Source: Sulfurimonas sp.
GTDB taxonomy: Bacteria > Campylobacterota > Campylobacteria > Campylobacterales > Sulfurimonadaceae
Direction: 5' to 3'
DNA length: 46,463 bases
NCBI GenBank assembly: GCA_030247515.1
Contig: JAOTSA010000005.1
Location: 1-46,463 of the forward strand
A program made the position numbers and the translations under genes. A model generated the notes under the pieces. It made no database searches. It was not told the origin of the DNA and saw only the letters and a program-made list of their open reading frames with translations. How positions within the stretch are numbered: the stretch's first letter is position 1; each line of letters starts with the position of its first letter. Below are positions 6,056 through 14,189 of this stretch, in pieces.

Positions 6056-6367
6056 TTACTTATCCATAGAGCGAACTTCTACATCCACTTCCGGTGCAAG
6101 ATCGAGCTTCATTAAAGAGTCAACAGTTTCTGGCGTAGCCGATACGATGTCGATAACTCTAGCATGCATACGAATTTCAAACTGCTCACGAGAACTTTTG
6201 TTAACGTGTGGAGATTTGATAACTGTATATTTACGAATCTTTGTTGGTAAAGGTATCGGACCACGAATAGCAGCTCCTGTACGCTTAACAGCCTCTACGA
6301 TTGATGCTACAGATCTATCAAGTACACGATGATCATAAGCTTTCAATTTTAAACGAATTTTTTCCAT
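6056..6367 (-). CDS. rpsJ: 30S ribosomal protein S10 (uS10), first gene of the cluster
   Basis: A 103-residue S10 with the signature [25 protein letters not shown]. It belongs to the 30S head and in many bacteria is also the NusE transcription factor. It is the first gene of the S10-spc cluster. An AAGGA ribosome-binding site lies a few bases before the ATG, and the promoter is at 6422-6450. Confidence 0.98.
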
Positions 6368-10203: not shown

Positions 10204-11706
10204 TTAAAATAGGTAGTTAATCTCGAAGCGGTATTCGCTGTAAGAGTCTTTATCTGTGCCATCAAGCCTATTTTCGGCATTTACATTTCCAAAACGTACT
10301 CTCGCATCAAGCTGTGGCGTTATTTGCTGTACCAAATCTATATGGATAACTTTGTTGTCAGCAATCGCTCCTGCGCTCTGCTTTGCTTCATCAAAATCCT
10401 GAATAACATAGCGAGCAAGAGTTTTAAAACCTTTAAGTATCTCTGCTTTGCCAAAATCATAGTTTGCTTCTAGCATCGCACTTTGTGTATTTGCCACCCA
10501 GTTGAGCTGTGCCATCGCACGGGTGTATCCGCCTGTCGGAAACGCTCTCCAAGGAGCAACGATATCTGCCTCATCTGCTACATCAGAGTAACCAGCGAGA
10601 AGTTTTAGTGCGCCTTTTGAAAGGACTAAACGAGCCATCCATGCGGATGCGTCAAGCGAGAAACGCTCATCATATCCAAGAAGTGTTGCAGGAGCTTTGT
10701 CTCTTCCAAGATTTCCACTCAAACTAGCACCACCGACATCGCCTCCGCCGTTATCGAACTGTTCCATATAGCGAAACCCAGGGGTAAGCGTGTAGCCACC
10801 TCCTAACTCTATCTTATAGTTTAGCTCTGCAATTACAGAAGAGAGTACCTCTGGAACAGCTGTATATGTGATGTCTAGTTTTAGATTTTCTACTGATGCG
10901 TTGCTTATAGCTCCGACAACCAGTTCATGCTCTGTATCTTCGCCTGCGTTTTTGAAGTTATTGTAACTTAACCCTTTATGCACACCTGAGTCGTCATTGC
11001 CATTCCAACTATCGCCTGAAGAGTCTTTAAAAGTGATGACATCGTGAAAGGTTGTATGGTCACGCAATTTTTGCGCTGTTAGGTAGGCAGCTTTGAGCGT
11101 TGTTTTTGGCAAATCTTTTGACTCTGCGCTAAAACCCTCAAAAGCGTTAGGAATCATCTTTGTATCGTTTGATGCAGTAAGAGCTGACTCAAAAAATTGG
11201 CGTCCATACTTGAGCGATGTTTTTGCCATATCATACTGAATATATGACTGTGCCAAGACAACCATGTCCCAGTCATTCTCTTTTTTTACCTTGTAACGGC
11301 TAAATGTATCTTTACCAGATTTTGTAAAACCAACGGCAGAGTCATCTTCTCTTAAGCTTGAAAAAGGGCTGTTTGCATAGTAAAGCCCTGCCGTTGCACT
11401 CACGCCGTAAAACGGTGCTGTTTTATAGATGATGCTTCCACCTATGCCAAATGCTTTATTGTCCGCATTGGTAGCGTTGTCTGCCGTATCCCAATCCCAA
11501 CGAAAAACATTTGTTCTTAGATGCCCATAAACCATCCCTTTTGTAAAAGCCTCTTCAAAAGTATTGGCACTTACTGGAAGTATATTGTAAACATGATCCA
11601 TATTTGGCTGCAACGTTCTCTTTGGTTTTGTCTCCTCTGCTGATGTACCACTTGCCAAAAGCAAAACGGTTGCAAGAGCTACCTTCGTAATTATTCTATT
11701 TATCAT
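10204..11706 (-). CDS. Opr-family outer-membrane porin
   Basis: A 500-residue beta-barrel protein. Residues 1-23 form a signal peptide ending in GTSAEE. The start of the mature part (TFEEAFTKGMVYGHLRTNVF) resembles OprD-like porins of Campylobacterota. The C-terminus FEINYLF ends in phenylalanine, the outer-membrane insertion signal, after alternating aromatic strands. It probably lets small solutes pass the outer membrane; the substrate is unknown. The ATG is preceded by GGGG at proper spacing. It is divergent from the octaheme cytochrome gene and shares a 190-base control region with it. Confidence 0.87.
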   Translation of the reverse strand: MINRIITKVALATVLLLASGTSAEETKPKRTLQPNMDHVYNILPVSANTFEEAFTKGMVYGHLRTNVFRWDWDTADNATNADNKAFGIGGSIIYKTAPFYGVSATAGLYYANSPFSSLREDDSAVGFTKSGKDTFSRYKVKKENDWDMVVLAQSYIQYDMAKTSLKYGRQFFESALTASNDTKMIPNAFEGFSAESKDLPKTTLKAAYLTAQKLRDHTTFHDVITFKDSSGDSWNGNDDSGVHKGLSYNNFKNAGEDTEHELVVGAISNASVENLKLDITYTAVPEVLSSVIAELNYKIELGGGYTLTPGFRYMEQFDNGGGDVGGASLSGNLGRDKAPATLLGYDERFSLDASAWMARLVLSKGALKLLAGYSDVADEADIVAPWRAFPTGGYTRAMAQLNWVANTQSAMLEANYDFGKAEILKGFKTLARYVIQDFDEAKQSAGAIADNKVIHIDLVQQITPQLDARVRFGNVNAENRLDGTDKDSYSEYRFEINYLF

Positions 11707-11826
11707 ATTTATTCCCCTTTTATGATACTTTTCTGCATAAGAGTTGATTATACTAAGGCGTATCTTACTTTTTGCTTTTATATATAAATTTCAAGCATTA
11801 CTTTAAAAAATCCCCATTAAGCTTGT

Positions 11827-11832
11827 TATAAT
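11827..11832 (+). promoter_or_regulatory. TATAAT -10 candidate upstream of the cytochrome operator
   Basis: A perfect TATAAT lies 7 bases before the inverted repeat at 11840-11876. Transcripts starting from it would begin at or inside the repeat, which fits control by a repressor or roadblock. A second, weaker -10 (TAAAAT, 11855-11860) lies between the repeat arms. Confidence 0.45.
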
Positions 11833-11839
11833 GATACAT

Positions 11840-11876
11840 TTGTAACAATTGCGTTAAAATGTCATAATTGTTACAA
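11840..11876 (+). promoter_or_regulatory. Perfect 11-bp inverted repeat, probable operator
   Basis: TTGTAACAATT (11840-11850) and AATTGTTACAA (11866-11876) are exact reverse complements with 15 bases between them. Each arm holds TTGTWACAA, itself a 9-base palindrome, so the site may bind two dimers. It covers the predicted promoter of the octaheme cytochrome gene and lies between it and the divergent porin gene. I do not recognise the motif as the site of a known regulator. An RNA hairpin is possible but lacks a following T run close by. Confidence 0.6.
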
Positions 11877-11896
11877 CCGCTTTTTTGGGAGAAAAA

Positions 11897-13210
11897 ATGA
11901 AGAAAAAAACTGTCTTAATCTTATCCATTTTACTTGTAGCTATCGCAGGCATCACGGCTTTTATGATTTATAAAAAATATGGAAAAATTGTGCCATATAT
12001 GGAGCAGCTCACAAAAGAGCAGGTAGGCGAAAATGTCAACTTGCAGCCCACTTCACAAAAAGATGCGCATTATGTCGGTTCGCAGAAGTGCCAAAAGTGT
12101 CATGAAGAGAAGTTTAAGGATTGGAAAGATTCTTACCATACAAAGATGATTCAAGATATCAAGGCAAATCCTAGTGCAATTGTGGGAGATTTTGCAACAC
12201 TTCCAGAGGATGCCGACTTTAAAAAAGAGGATATCGTCTATACCATCGGCACTAAATTTAAACAACGCTATATGATGGAAGTTGATTTTAACGGAACAAA
12301 AGATTATGTAGTAGGAAGCTATCAGTGGAATACACAGTTAAAAAAATGGCAGCCTTATAGCAGTACCAAAGATTGGTATCAAGATGCCTTTGAGAACAAC
12401 AACAGCAAAGTCGGAACATCCAAGACTTGTGACGGGTGTCATTTTACAGGATTTATGAGCCAAGAAAAACGAACCGAGCCATCCGTTTCATGTGAAGCGT
12501 GCCACGGTCCAGCGAGCAAACACGCTCTGCATCCAGAGCAAGACCTAGTTTACAAAGCAAGCAATGCCGACCCAAAACGCTCAAGTGAAGTCTGTATGCA
12601 GTGCCACATGCGCAACCGAGACAAACGACTTGAGACACATACGCTCAAAGACCTCTTTGGAGATGTGCGTGACTATCCAAAAGGGTATGAACCTGGGATG
12701 CCACTTGTTGACTATAAGAAAAAAGCACCGTTTGATGGAAAAGAGACGAGTGAATTTTACGGAAACGGTGTAGGCAAAAAAAACAGAACTCAAGGTAACG
12801 ACTATGTGCAGTCGATGATGTACAAACATGGCATCACATGTATAAATTGTCATGACCCGCATAAGCTTGATAACACAGTTGCAAAACCGTTAGGGGATGC
12901 TTCTTGTATGAAATGTCACTCTTTTGGTTCGGCAATAGGTCCGCACCAAAGTACGATTGAAGCGCATACACACCACAAAGCAGACTCTAAAGGTTCAAGT
13001 TGTATCGAGTGCCATATGCCAAAAATCGGCAAGCATCTACCCGAATCACCTGCAACCGTTCGTACGCACAGGTTTGGCTTTATCACGCCTGATGAAACCA
13101 AAAAATACAAAGTGCCAAATGCGTGCAATAGCTGTCATCAAGACAAAAGTCTTGAATGGTCTGAAGAAGCACTCAAAAAATGGGGTATGAGCCAGTGGGT
13201 GACAAAATAA
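11897..13210 (+). CDS. Octaheme cytochrome c, cytochrome c554-like
   Basis: A 437-residue protein with eight CxxCH heme sites: residues 65-69, 178-182, 199-203, 233-237, 315-319, 337-341, 369-373 and 410-414. An N-terminal hydrophobic helix (about 5-25) is a signal anchor or signal peptide. The segment YVGSQKCQKCHEEKFKDW and the spacing of later motifs match multiheme cytochromes with Cytochrome_C554-type domains, here without the TPR repeats often attached. It probably carries electrons in the periplasm; a catalytic role cannot be told. The ATG at 11897 has GGGAG upstream, so the in-frame TTG at 11885 was not used. The ChrB-like gene follows 40 bases later. Confidence 0.88.
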   Translation: MKKKTVLILSILLVAIAGITAFMIYKKYGKIVPYMEQLTKEQVGENVNLQPTSQKDAHYVGSQKCQKCHEEKFKDWKDSYHTKMIQDIKANPSAIVGDFATLPEDADFKKEDIVYTIGTKFKQRYMMEVDFNGTKDYVVGSYQWNTQLKKWQPYSSTKDWYQDAFENNNSKVGTSKTCDGCHFTGFMSQEKRTEPSVSCEACHGPASKHALHPEQDLVYKASNADPKRSSEVCMQCHMRNRDKRLETHTLKDLFGDVRDYPKGYEPGMPLVDYKKKAPFDGKETSEFYGNGVGKKNRTQGNDYVQSMMYKHGITCINCHDPHKLDNTVAKPLGDASCMKCHSFGSAIGPHQSTIEAHTHHKADSKGSSCIECHMPKIGKHLPESPATVRTHRFGFITPDETKKYKVPNACNSCHQDKSLEWSEEALKKWGMSQWVTK

Positions 13211-13217
13211 TTTAAGA

Positions 13218-13223
13218 TATAAT
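13218..13223 (+). promoter_or_regulatory. TATAAT -10 candidate before the ChrB-like gene
   Basis: A perfect TATAAT lies in the 40-base gap after the cytochrome stop, 27 bases before the ATG at 13251. It could give the ChrB-like gene its own transcript in addition to read-through. No -35 is seen. Confidence 0.4.
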
Positions 13224-13250
13224 TCCTTGAATAACTAAAAAAGGGTTAAG

Positions 13251-14189
13251 ATGCAACAAGCGGCATGGATTTTGATGTTTTACTCTATGCCCTCAAAACC
13301 TGAGCGAAATCGTTTGAGAGTTTATAGAAAACTGCAAAAAGAGGGGACGCTTGCGCTTAAAGACGGTGTTCATATTCTCCCGTTTAATGAAGATGCGCAA
13401 GAGCTTTTTATGTGGCTGCATCAAGAGATAAAAACTCTTGGCGGAGAGATGCACTTTAGTATTATTGAAAAATTTGAAACACTAAGAGGTGAAGATATTG
13501 TTACACTCTTCAAACTTCAAGCAGAAGCCTCTTATGATACGATTGAGCAGAGTGTAAAAAAGCTAAATTCAGAGCTATCTTTGGAAAAAACAACTTCAAA
13601 ACAAGAGCAGATTTTTGAGCAACAGATAAAAAAAGTAGTGCGTGATTTTGAAGAGATTCAAACGGTGGATTTTTTTGCATCAGACAAAGGCAAAACAGTG
13701 AGAGAGAGCATCCAGTCACTTCAAGCAAAACTCCACTCTGCTCCTCTGCCAAAACCCATGATTCAACTCTGCCAAGCCCAAGACTACCAAAACAGAGTGT
13801 GGCAAACAAGAAAAAAACCATTTGTTGACAGAATGGCATCTGCATGGCTTATCAAAAGATATATCGACCCAGATGCTACATTTATCTTTGGCGATGCTAT
13901 CGACACTTCAAAAGAGAACATCATTACTTACGACATGAACCAAGCGACGTTTACGCACATAGGCGACTTTTGCACCTATGAAGTGTTATTACAATCATTT
14001 CAACTTCATGAAAATGTTGTTTTACAAAATATTGGAAAAATCATCCACAATCTTGACCTCAATGACGACAAATACATCACGCCAGAGGCAGAGGGGATAA
14101 AAATGATTTTAAGTGCGATTCGAAACAGTGAGAAAGATGACAACGCCATACTTGAAAAAAGCTATGAAATCTTTGATTATTTATGCTAA
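13251..14189 (+). CDS. ChrB-like chromate resistance/regulatory protein
   Basis: A 312-residue protein with both parts of the ChrB family. The N-terminal domain (about 1-75) reads WILMFYSMPSKPERNRLRVY and ALKDGVHILPFNEDAQELF. The C-terminal Chrome_Resist domain (about 180-312) contains FVDRMASAWLIKRYIDPDA, FTHIGDFCTYEVLL and IIHNLDLND. In known systems ChrB regulates or supports the ChrA chromate efflux pump. No chrA is present in this window; the partner here is an octaheme cytochrome. AAAGGG precedes the ATG. It converges with moeA and overlaps it by four bases. Confidence 0.8.
   Translation: MQQAAWILMFYSMPSKPERNRLRVYRKLQKEGTLALKDGVHILPFNEDAQELFMWLHQEIKTLGGEMHFSIIEKFETLRGEDIVTLFKLQAEASYDTIEQSVKKLNSELSLEKTTSKQEQIFEQQIKKVVRDFEEIQTVDFFASDKGKTVRESIQSLQAKLHSAPLPKPMIQLCQAQDYQNRVWQTRKKPFVDRMASAWLIKRYIDPDATFIFGDAIDTSKENIITYDMNQATFTHIGDFCTYEVLLQSFQLHENVVLQNIGKIIHNLDLNDDKYITPEAEGIKMILSAIRNSEKDDNAILEKSYEIFDYLC

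Follow-up and report, generated by a model that had tools for sequence, protein, structure and literature searches.

A candidate ChrB-regulated octaheme cytochrome operon, a putative chromate-response circuit whose output is a reductase and not a pump

The window, i.e. the whole 46,463-nt stretch of Sulfurimonas sp. DNA that was analyzed, contains an octaheme cytochrome gene and a chrB gene behind a long promoter palindrome. The sequence points to a conserved ChrB-regulated operon that would be a version of the known chromate-response circuit of ChrB in which a reductase replaces the pump. The regulatory half of this proposal is well supported by the sequence features described below, and the chemistry is what we infer.

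The cytochrome gene (11897-13210, + strand) has an ATG start, which is preceded by GGGAG at 11887-11891, and encodes a protein of 437 aa with eight CXXCH motifs. Its stop codon is separated by 40 bases from the start of chrB (13251-14189, + strand), which encodes 312 aa with a ChrB_N and a ChrB_C domain. The ORFs, the CXXCH count, and the Pfam matches confirm the first-pass annotation, which had described an octaheme cytochrome followed at this distance by a full-length ChrB. A consensus scan predicts a sigma-70-like promoter for both genes (11803-11832, + strand; TTAAAA-18-TATAAT with TG before the -10 box), a consensus match only, with agreement at 10 of 12 positions. On the other side of the operator, a divergent OprD-family porin gene (10204-11706, - strand) is separated from the cytochrome gene by 190 bp.

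To characterize the distribution of the pairing, one genome per species was scanned (84,980 species), which yielded 80 cytochrome loci. chrB lies directly behind the cytochrome gene in the window and in three Campylobacterota MAGs, i.e. the loci L022, L023 (Sulfuricurvum), and L024 (Sulfurovum). In L027, from a Planctomycetota MAG, chrB precedes the cytochrome gene with one small ORF in between. These five loci and the chrB-less L025 form one clade of the cytochrome tree (SH-aLRT 97%); L025 and the similar L026 have the cytochrome without ChrB. In L067, from a gammaproteobacterial MAG, a gene for an exported ChrB_C-only protein directly precedes the cytochrome gene. ChrA is absent from the genomes of L022 (G361), L023, L024, L027, and L067.

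Close homologues of the window ChrB were found in 2 of 397 sampled Campylobacterota genomes, the second being G361, and close cytochrome orthologues (at least 56% identity) in nine sampled genomes of this phylum. PF09828 had matches in 3 of 394 Campylobacterota genomes, the third match being a short, exported protein encoded in a different context. When 150 Pseudomonadota and 199 Planctomycetota genomes were sampled, ChrB_C never had a multiheme gene nearby, showing that direct cytochrome-ChrB pairing is rare. Viral contigs had zero ChrB matches, and plasmids contained only remote relatives of the cytochrome (best 37%, Granulicella) and no cytochrome-chr unit. We found no description of the cytochrome-ChrB pairing, or of the ChrB-ABC pairing discussed below, in the open-access literature.

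Most cytochrome orthologues lack ChrB and adjoin a two-component system or a rhodanese gene. The arrangement aroE, cytochrome, response regulator, and kinase occurs in 21 rows of the cytochrome tree, and a rhodanese gene lies upstream of the cytochrome gene in six rows. The enzyme is therefore also under other control, and these neighborhoods indicate that the cytochrome is a movable module with ChrB as one of several partners. The conserved pairing that the first-pass annotation had proposed to survey in Campylobacterota thus holds within the cytochrome clade of the window, but it is not general in the phylum; the two genes are not neighbors in most orthologues (e.g. the Sulfurovum aroE loci), but they are inside this clade. 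Pairing in only five to six genomes, together with the many orthologues without ChrB, could be taken to mean that the two genes are chance neighbors without a functional link. However, different families show the same gene order, with gaps of 9-40 bases and a shared operator, and the pairing is found in more than one phylum and in several parts of the cytochrome tree, so that we regard this explanation as very unlikely.

A further observation concerns the Sulfurovum-type loci L029, L031, L033, L035-L039, L041, L044, L047, L050, L054, L056, L057, L060-L063, L066, and L077, which have a fixed run of trpE-like, aroE, cytochrome, response regulator, and histidine kinase genes. Another signal may control the same cytochrome there.

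The candidate ChrB operator (11840-11876, 37 bp, no strand) is a perfect 11-bp inverted repeat with a 15-bp spacer, TTGTAACAATT-N15-AATTGTTACAA. It begins eight bases after the TATAAT box, which ends at 11832, and thus lies downstream of the -10 box and upstream of the ribosome-binding site, a classical blocking position. The repeat occurs once in the window, with 0 expected in shuffles, and the genome contains no second copy with three or fewer mismatches. Sites of 37 bp with the same ends lie ahead of the first gene of the operons in L022 and L023, and a 40-bp variant lies at the chrB operon promoter of L024. When the upstream regions of 71 cytochrome genes were compared, the chrB-bearing window, L022, and L023 had the three best sites, each of exactly 37 bp; the close relatives L025 and L026 have neither chrB nor an operator site.

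We also scanned 2.59 Mb of fetched loci with the degenerate pattern TTGTWACAATW-N-WATTGTWACAA, with spacers of 5-25 bp (21 lengths) and with W positions that were chosen after L191 had been seen. With up to two mismatches, every match was at a chrB operon promoter (window, L191, L197, L027, and L024). The sites of L191 and L197, which are planctomycete ChrB-ABC operons, lie inside the operon promoter and have the same 15-bp spacer as the window; the L027 operator has a 6-bp spacer and is about one turn shorter. Across 298 Campylobacterota genomes, the 15-bp version gave chance-like two-mismatch matches in 11 genomes besides that of the window.

For comparison, the ChrB site of Ochrobactrum tritici, GTAGATCTTATCTCATTATTGTAGTAACATCTAC (GTAGAT-N22-ATCTAC), is a long palindrome that is imperfect and overlaps the -10 box (PMC3817168). 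The site of chrBA from Shewanella sp. ANA-3, TTGTAGACTTTCCTACCTTTGTGTAACTAAATCTACAA (TTGTAGA-N24-TCTACAA), is, like that of the window, a long promoter-proximal palindrome with TTGTA...TACAA ends, the lengths being 38 and 37 bp, respectively. Ahead of 49 chrB operons, a simple palindrome search gave a modest excess over shuffles, and the spacing-resolved pattern was clearer, with 38 bp as the length with the clearest excess (11 versus 2.5). From these sequence comparisons, it is probable that ChrB binds the operator and regulates the cytochrome gene through it, and we propose that ChrB is an autoregulating repressor.

A segment of about 110 bp with promoter and operator is directly duplicated in L023 (6270-6375 and 7140-7240), and the two copies flank a gene for a small exported rhodanese-like protein that lies between the OprD porin gene and the barrel-cytochrome-chrB operon. 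The second operator copy (6313-6349) was considered as proof of porin regulation and rejected, because it is part of the duplication and its promoter faces away from the porin gene.

The ChrB protein of the window matches ChrB_C (PF09828) with 135 bits, compared with a gathering threshold of 25, and ChrB_N (PF20229) marginally, with 25.7 bits at a cut-off of 23. Its structural model has a Cas2/PaaX-like fold in the N-terminal domain, and a PDB fold search with the model retrieved relatives for this domain only and none for ChrB_C. For ChrB of O. tritici, DNA contacts are attributed to R18 and R23, and the chromate response requires R180, R187, and H229 (PMC3817168). We matched these published positions to homologues, which identified R21, R26, R187, R194, and H236 of the window protein as the respective counterparts. 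The PF09828 match, the marginal PF20229 match, the residues, and the promoter palindrome place the protein in the ChrB family. The first-pass annotation had suggested that ChrB has a different job here. This was not supported, because the residues for DNA binding and for the ligand response, as well as the layout of the operator, match an ordinary ChrB, and the most economical interpretation is a change of the target gene alone.

The window operon shares with chrBACF (TnOtChr of O. tritici 5bvl1) and chrBA (plasmid of Shewanella sp. ANA-3) the conserved ChrB residues and the location of chrB inside the operon under its control. Unlike in these systems, chrB is the last gene and not the first, and both a ChrA pump and a superoxide dismutase are missing. 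Unlike in chrBA, the target in operons of the window type is an octaheme cytochrome, which is accompanied by an outer-membrane barrel in some of them. The absence of ChrA, which had been noted from the window, was verified for the whole assembly: PF02417 had zero matches in the 99.98% complete genome, with positive search controls, and the genome contains a single ChrB_C domain. With ChrA in neither the operon nor the genome, the operon falls outside the chrBA efflux group.

The cytochrome can be classified as an octaheme c-type cytochrome in the broad sense, with eight CXXCH motifs in one chain. All eight motifs are invariant across 14 aligned relatives with 36-74% identity. A hydrophobic N-terminal helix (residues 2-28 in the AlphaFold2 model) would serve as a signal or membrane anchor, from which we infer export to the periplasm, and we propose that the protein is a periplasmic terminal reductase. 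The model is poor (pLDDT 46.5) and was used for this helix alone, so that the active site cannot be named. The closest solved structure by sequence is PDB 6I5B (E 1.8e-21), i.e. OcwA, a terminal reductase with nine hemes that belongs to the NrfA/c554/MccA lineage (PMC6703420). Both proteins are thus multiheme c-type cytochromes of the NrfA/c554 lineage. OcwA of Thermincola potens differs in having nine hemes instead of eight, whereas the window cytochrome belongs to a Gram-negative host and, unlike OcwA, is predicted to be periplasmic with an N-terminal helix. A THHK stretch of the window protein resembles the distal His-His pair of OcwA, and it is variable in relatives (HH, KH, or RH).

OcwA is slow on nitrite and hydroxylamine, and this kinship could suggest a cytochrome for nitrogen compounds or for general electron transfer, with ChrB sensing redox or metal stress and not an oxyanion substrate of the cytochrome. 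However, none of the curated NCBIfam models for OTR, MccA, HAO, and NrfA scored at or near its cut-off; the top NCBIfam score was that of a GSU2203-type decaheme protein, with 56 bits versus the required 325. This reading also leaves the control by ChrB unexplained, and we consider it unlikely.

Low-potential multiheme cytochromes can reduce Cr(VI) (PMC3523564). The Cr(VI)-reducing multihemes of Desulfovibrio, Geobacter, and Shewanella resemble the window cytochrome in class, i.e. they are low-potential c-type cytochromes able to reduce chromate. They differ in that a chromate-type regulator is not known for them.

The ligand-response residues are kept in nearly all sampled ChrB proteins, including those linked to ABC transporters. 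Because they are near-universal in the family, they do not prove that chromate is the ligand; they indicate a functional ligand domain, not which ligand is bound. To our knowledge, chromate is the sole tested or known ligand of the ChrB family, and it is our first guess for the window protein, with an even chance of being correct. The same circuit might instead respond to another substrate, so that ChrB would sense selenite, tellurite, sulfite, thiosulfate, arsenate, or a similar anion, which the cytochrome would reduce. The ChrB proteins of the Campylobacterota cytochrome operons form a long-branched clade of their own (100%), apart from the ChrA-linked clade and the ABC-linked planctomycete clade. 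Some chrB genes adjoin TauE/SafE or SulP transporter genes, several Sulfurovum loci have rhodanese genes flanking the cytochrome gene, and L023 has a rhodanese-like gene nearby. These Campylobacterota taxa are sulfur oxidizers, which also fits another anion. Set against this are the status of chromate as the only tested ligand and the retention of all chromate-response residues; another oxyanion is possible, but we would not expect it.

Small outer-membrane barrels are encoded by the first gene of the operons in L022, L023, and L024. The barrel assignment is weak, as the L022 copy has no Pfam match and only a related L083 protein reaches a barrel family. A search of the window genome with the small barrel of L024 gave no match, which is a weak test for a divergent barrel. 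The first-pass annotation had named the porin as a partner of the pair. Its divergent position across the operator stands, but the tie is weak: a divergent OprD gene is found in just one of the three Campylobacterota relatives (L023), where the rhodanese-like gene and the duplicated operator segment separate it from the operon. The porin is a possible member with weak support, and its membership is only suggestive. The MtrAB/PioAB conduits consist of a large barrel housing a decaheme cytochrome, whereas the barrels near the cytochrome loci, of about 245 aa or of OprD type, look too small for a multiheme protein.

Seven planctomycete operons join full-length ChrB with ABC genes, most of them with a barrel. 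Barrel, MFS transporter, and FbpABC-type ABC genes accompany ChrB in L184, L191, L196, L197, and L111, and partly in L193 and L202. As an example of gene content, L197:5451-13596 and L191:6195-13258 encode a barrel, ChrB, an MFS transporter, an FbpA-like binding protein, a permease, and an ATPase, to which L197 adds a 207-aa DUF protein. The L067 run consists of an FbpA-like binding protein, a permease, an ATPase, the exported ChrB_C protein, and the cytochrome, and the octaheme cytochrome of L078 lies beside barrel and ABC genes of the planctomycete type. These arrangements could mean that both the cytochrome and the ChrB domain are parts of an FbpABC-type import system for metal or anion acquisition, in which the cytochrome reduces the cargo. 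However, the pair has no neighboring ABC genes in the window, L022, L023, and L024. In addition, iron is doubtful: in L078:3593-4594 and related FbpA-like binding proteins, a TDTDD stretch takes the place of the tyrosine pair that binds iron, so that a cargo other than plain Fe(III) is likely. We regard a role in metal or anion acquisition as quite improbable for the window pair.

Exported ChrB_C-only proteins are encoded in different phyla, i.e. at L209:7947-8558 (- strand), L067:5660-6214 (+ strand), and L263:1429-1899 (- strand). Those of L067, L209, and L263 lie within FbpABC-type gene sets, as in the Campylobacterota genome G040, and are possibly extra subunits or accessory binding proteins of the ABC transporter. 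Speculatively, ChrB_C could serve generally to bind oxyanions or metals within a wider system in which one and the same substrate is sensed, passed through the outer membrane, moved by an ABC transporter, and reduced by a multiheme protein. The chrBA pump would then be the best-known branch and the window operon a branch with reductase output; we hold this generalization to be doubtful.

For the window, our preferred reading is a ChrB-controlled, oxyanion-inducible detoxification operon that acts by reduction and not by efflux, although we put it slightly below an even chance. It is the simplest reading because an inducible periplasmic multiheme cytochrome lies beside an oxyanion-type sensor and no pump is present. 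Ligand-free ChrB bound to the 37-bp palindrome would block transcription of the cytochrome gene and chrB. Chromate or a close oxyanion in the cytoplasm would bind to ChrB_C and release ChrB, and the octaheme cytochrome would then be made and exported. It would draw low-potential electrons from the quinol or periplasmic cytochrome pool and reduce the oxyanion in the periplasm before its entry, e.g. Cr(VI) to poorly soluble Cr(III). Either the small barrel (in the three Campylobacterota relatives) or the divergent OprD (in the window) could serve as the entry port. Whether the cytochrome indeed reduces the ligand of ChrB is evenly balanced in our estimate. The earlier idea of an oxyanion-reducing module is thus retained in part: the ChrA-less unit is real and recurs in relatives, and reduction is its most likely function, but the role of ChrB is probably unchanged.

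In the known ChrB operons, the end product is a pump, and the reduction of chromate by cytochromes is usually viewed as incidental. A ChrB-controlled cytochrome, if the proposal is true, would be a dedicated inducible reduction system, with use in bioremediation and biosensors. The operator common to these operons, together with the partners that recur (barrel, ABC transporter, and cytochrome), offers a direct route to what ChrB proteins sense in general. The operon suggests that some bacteria may answer a toxic oxyanion by reduction instead of export.
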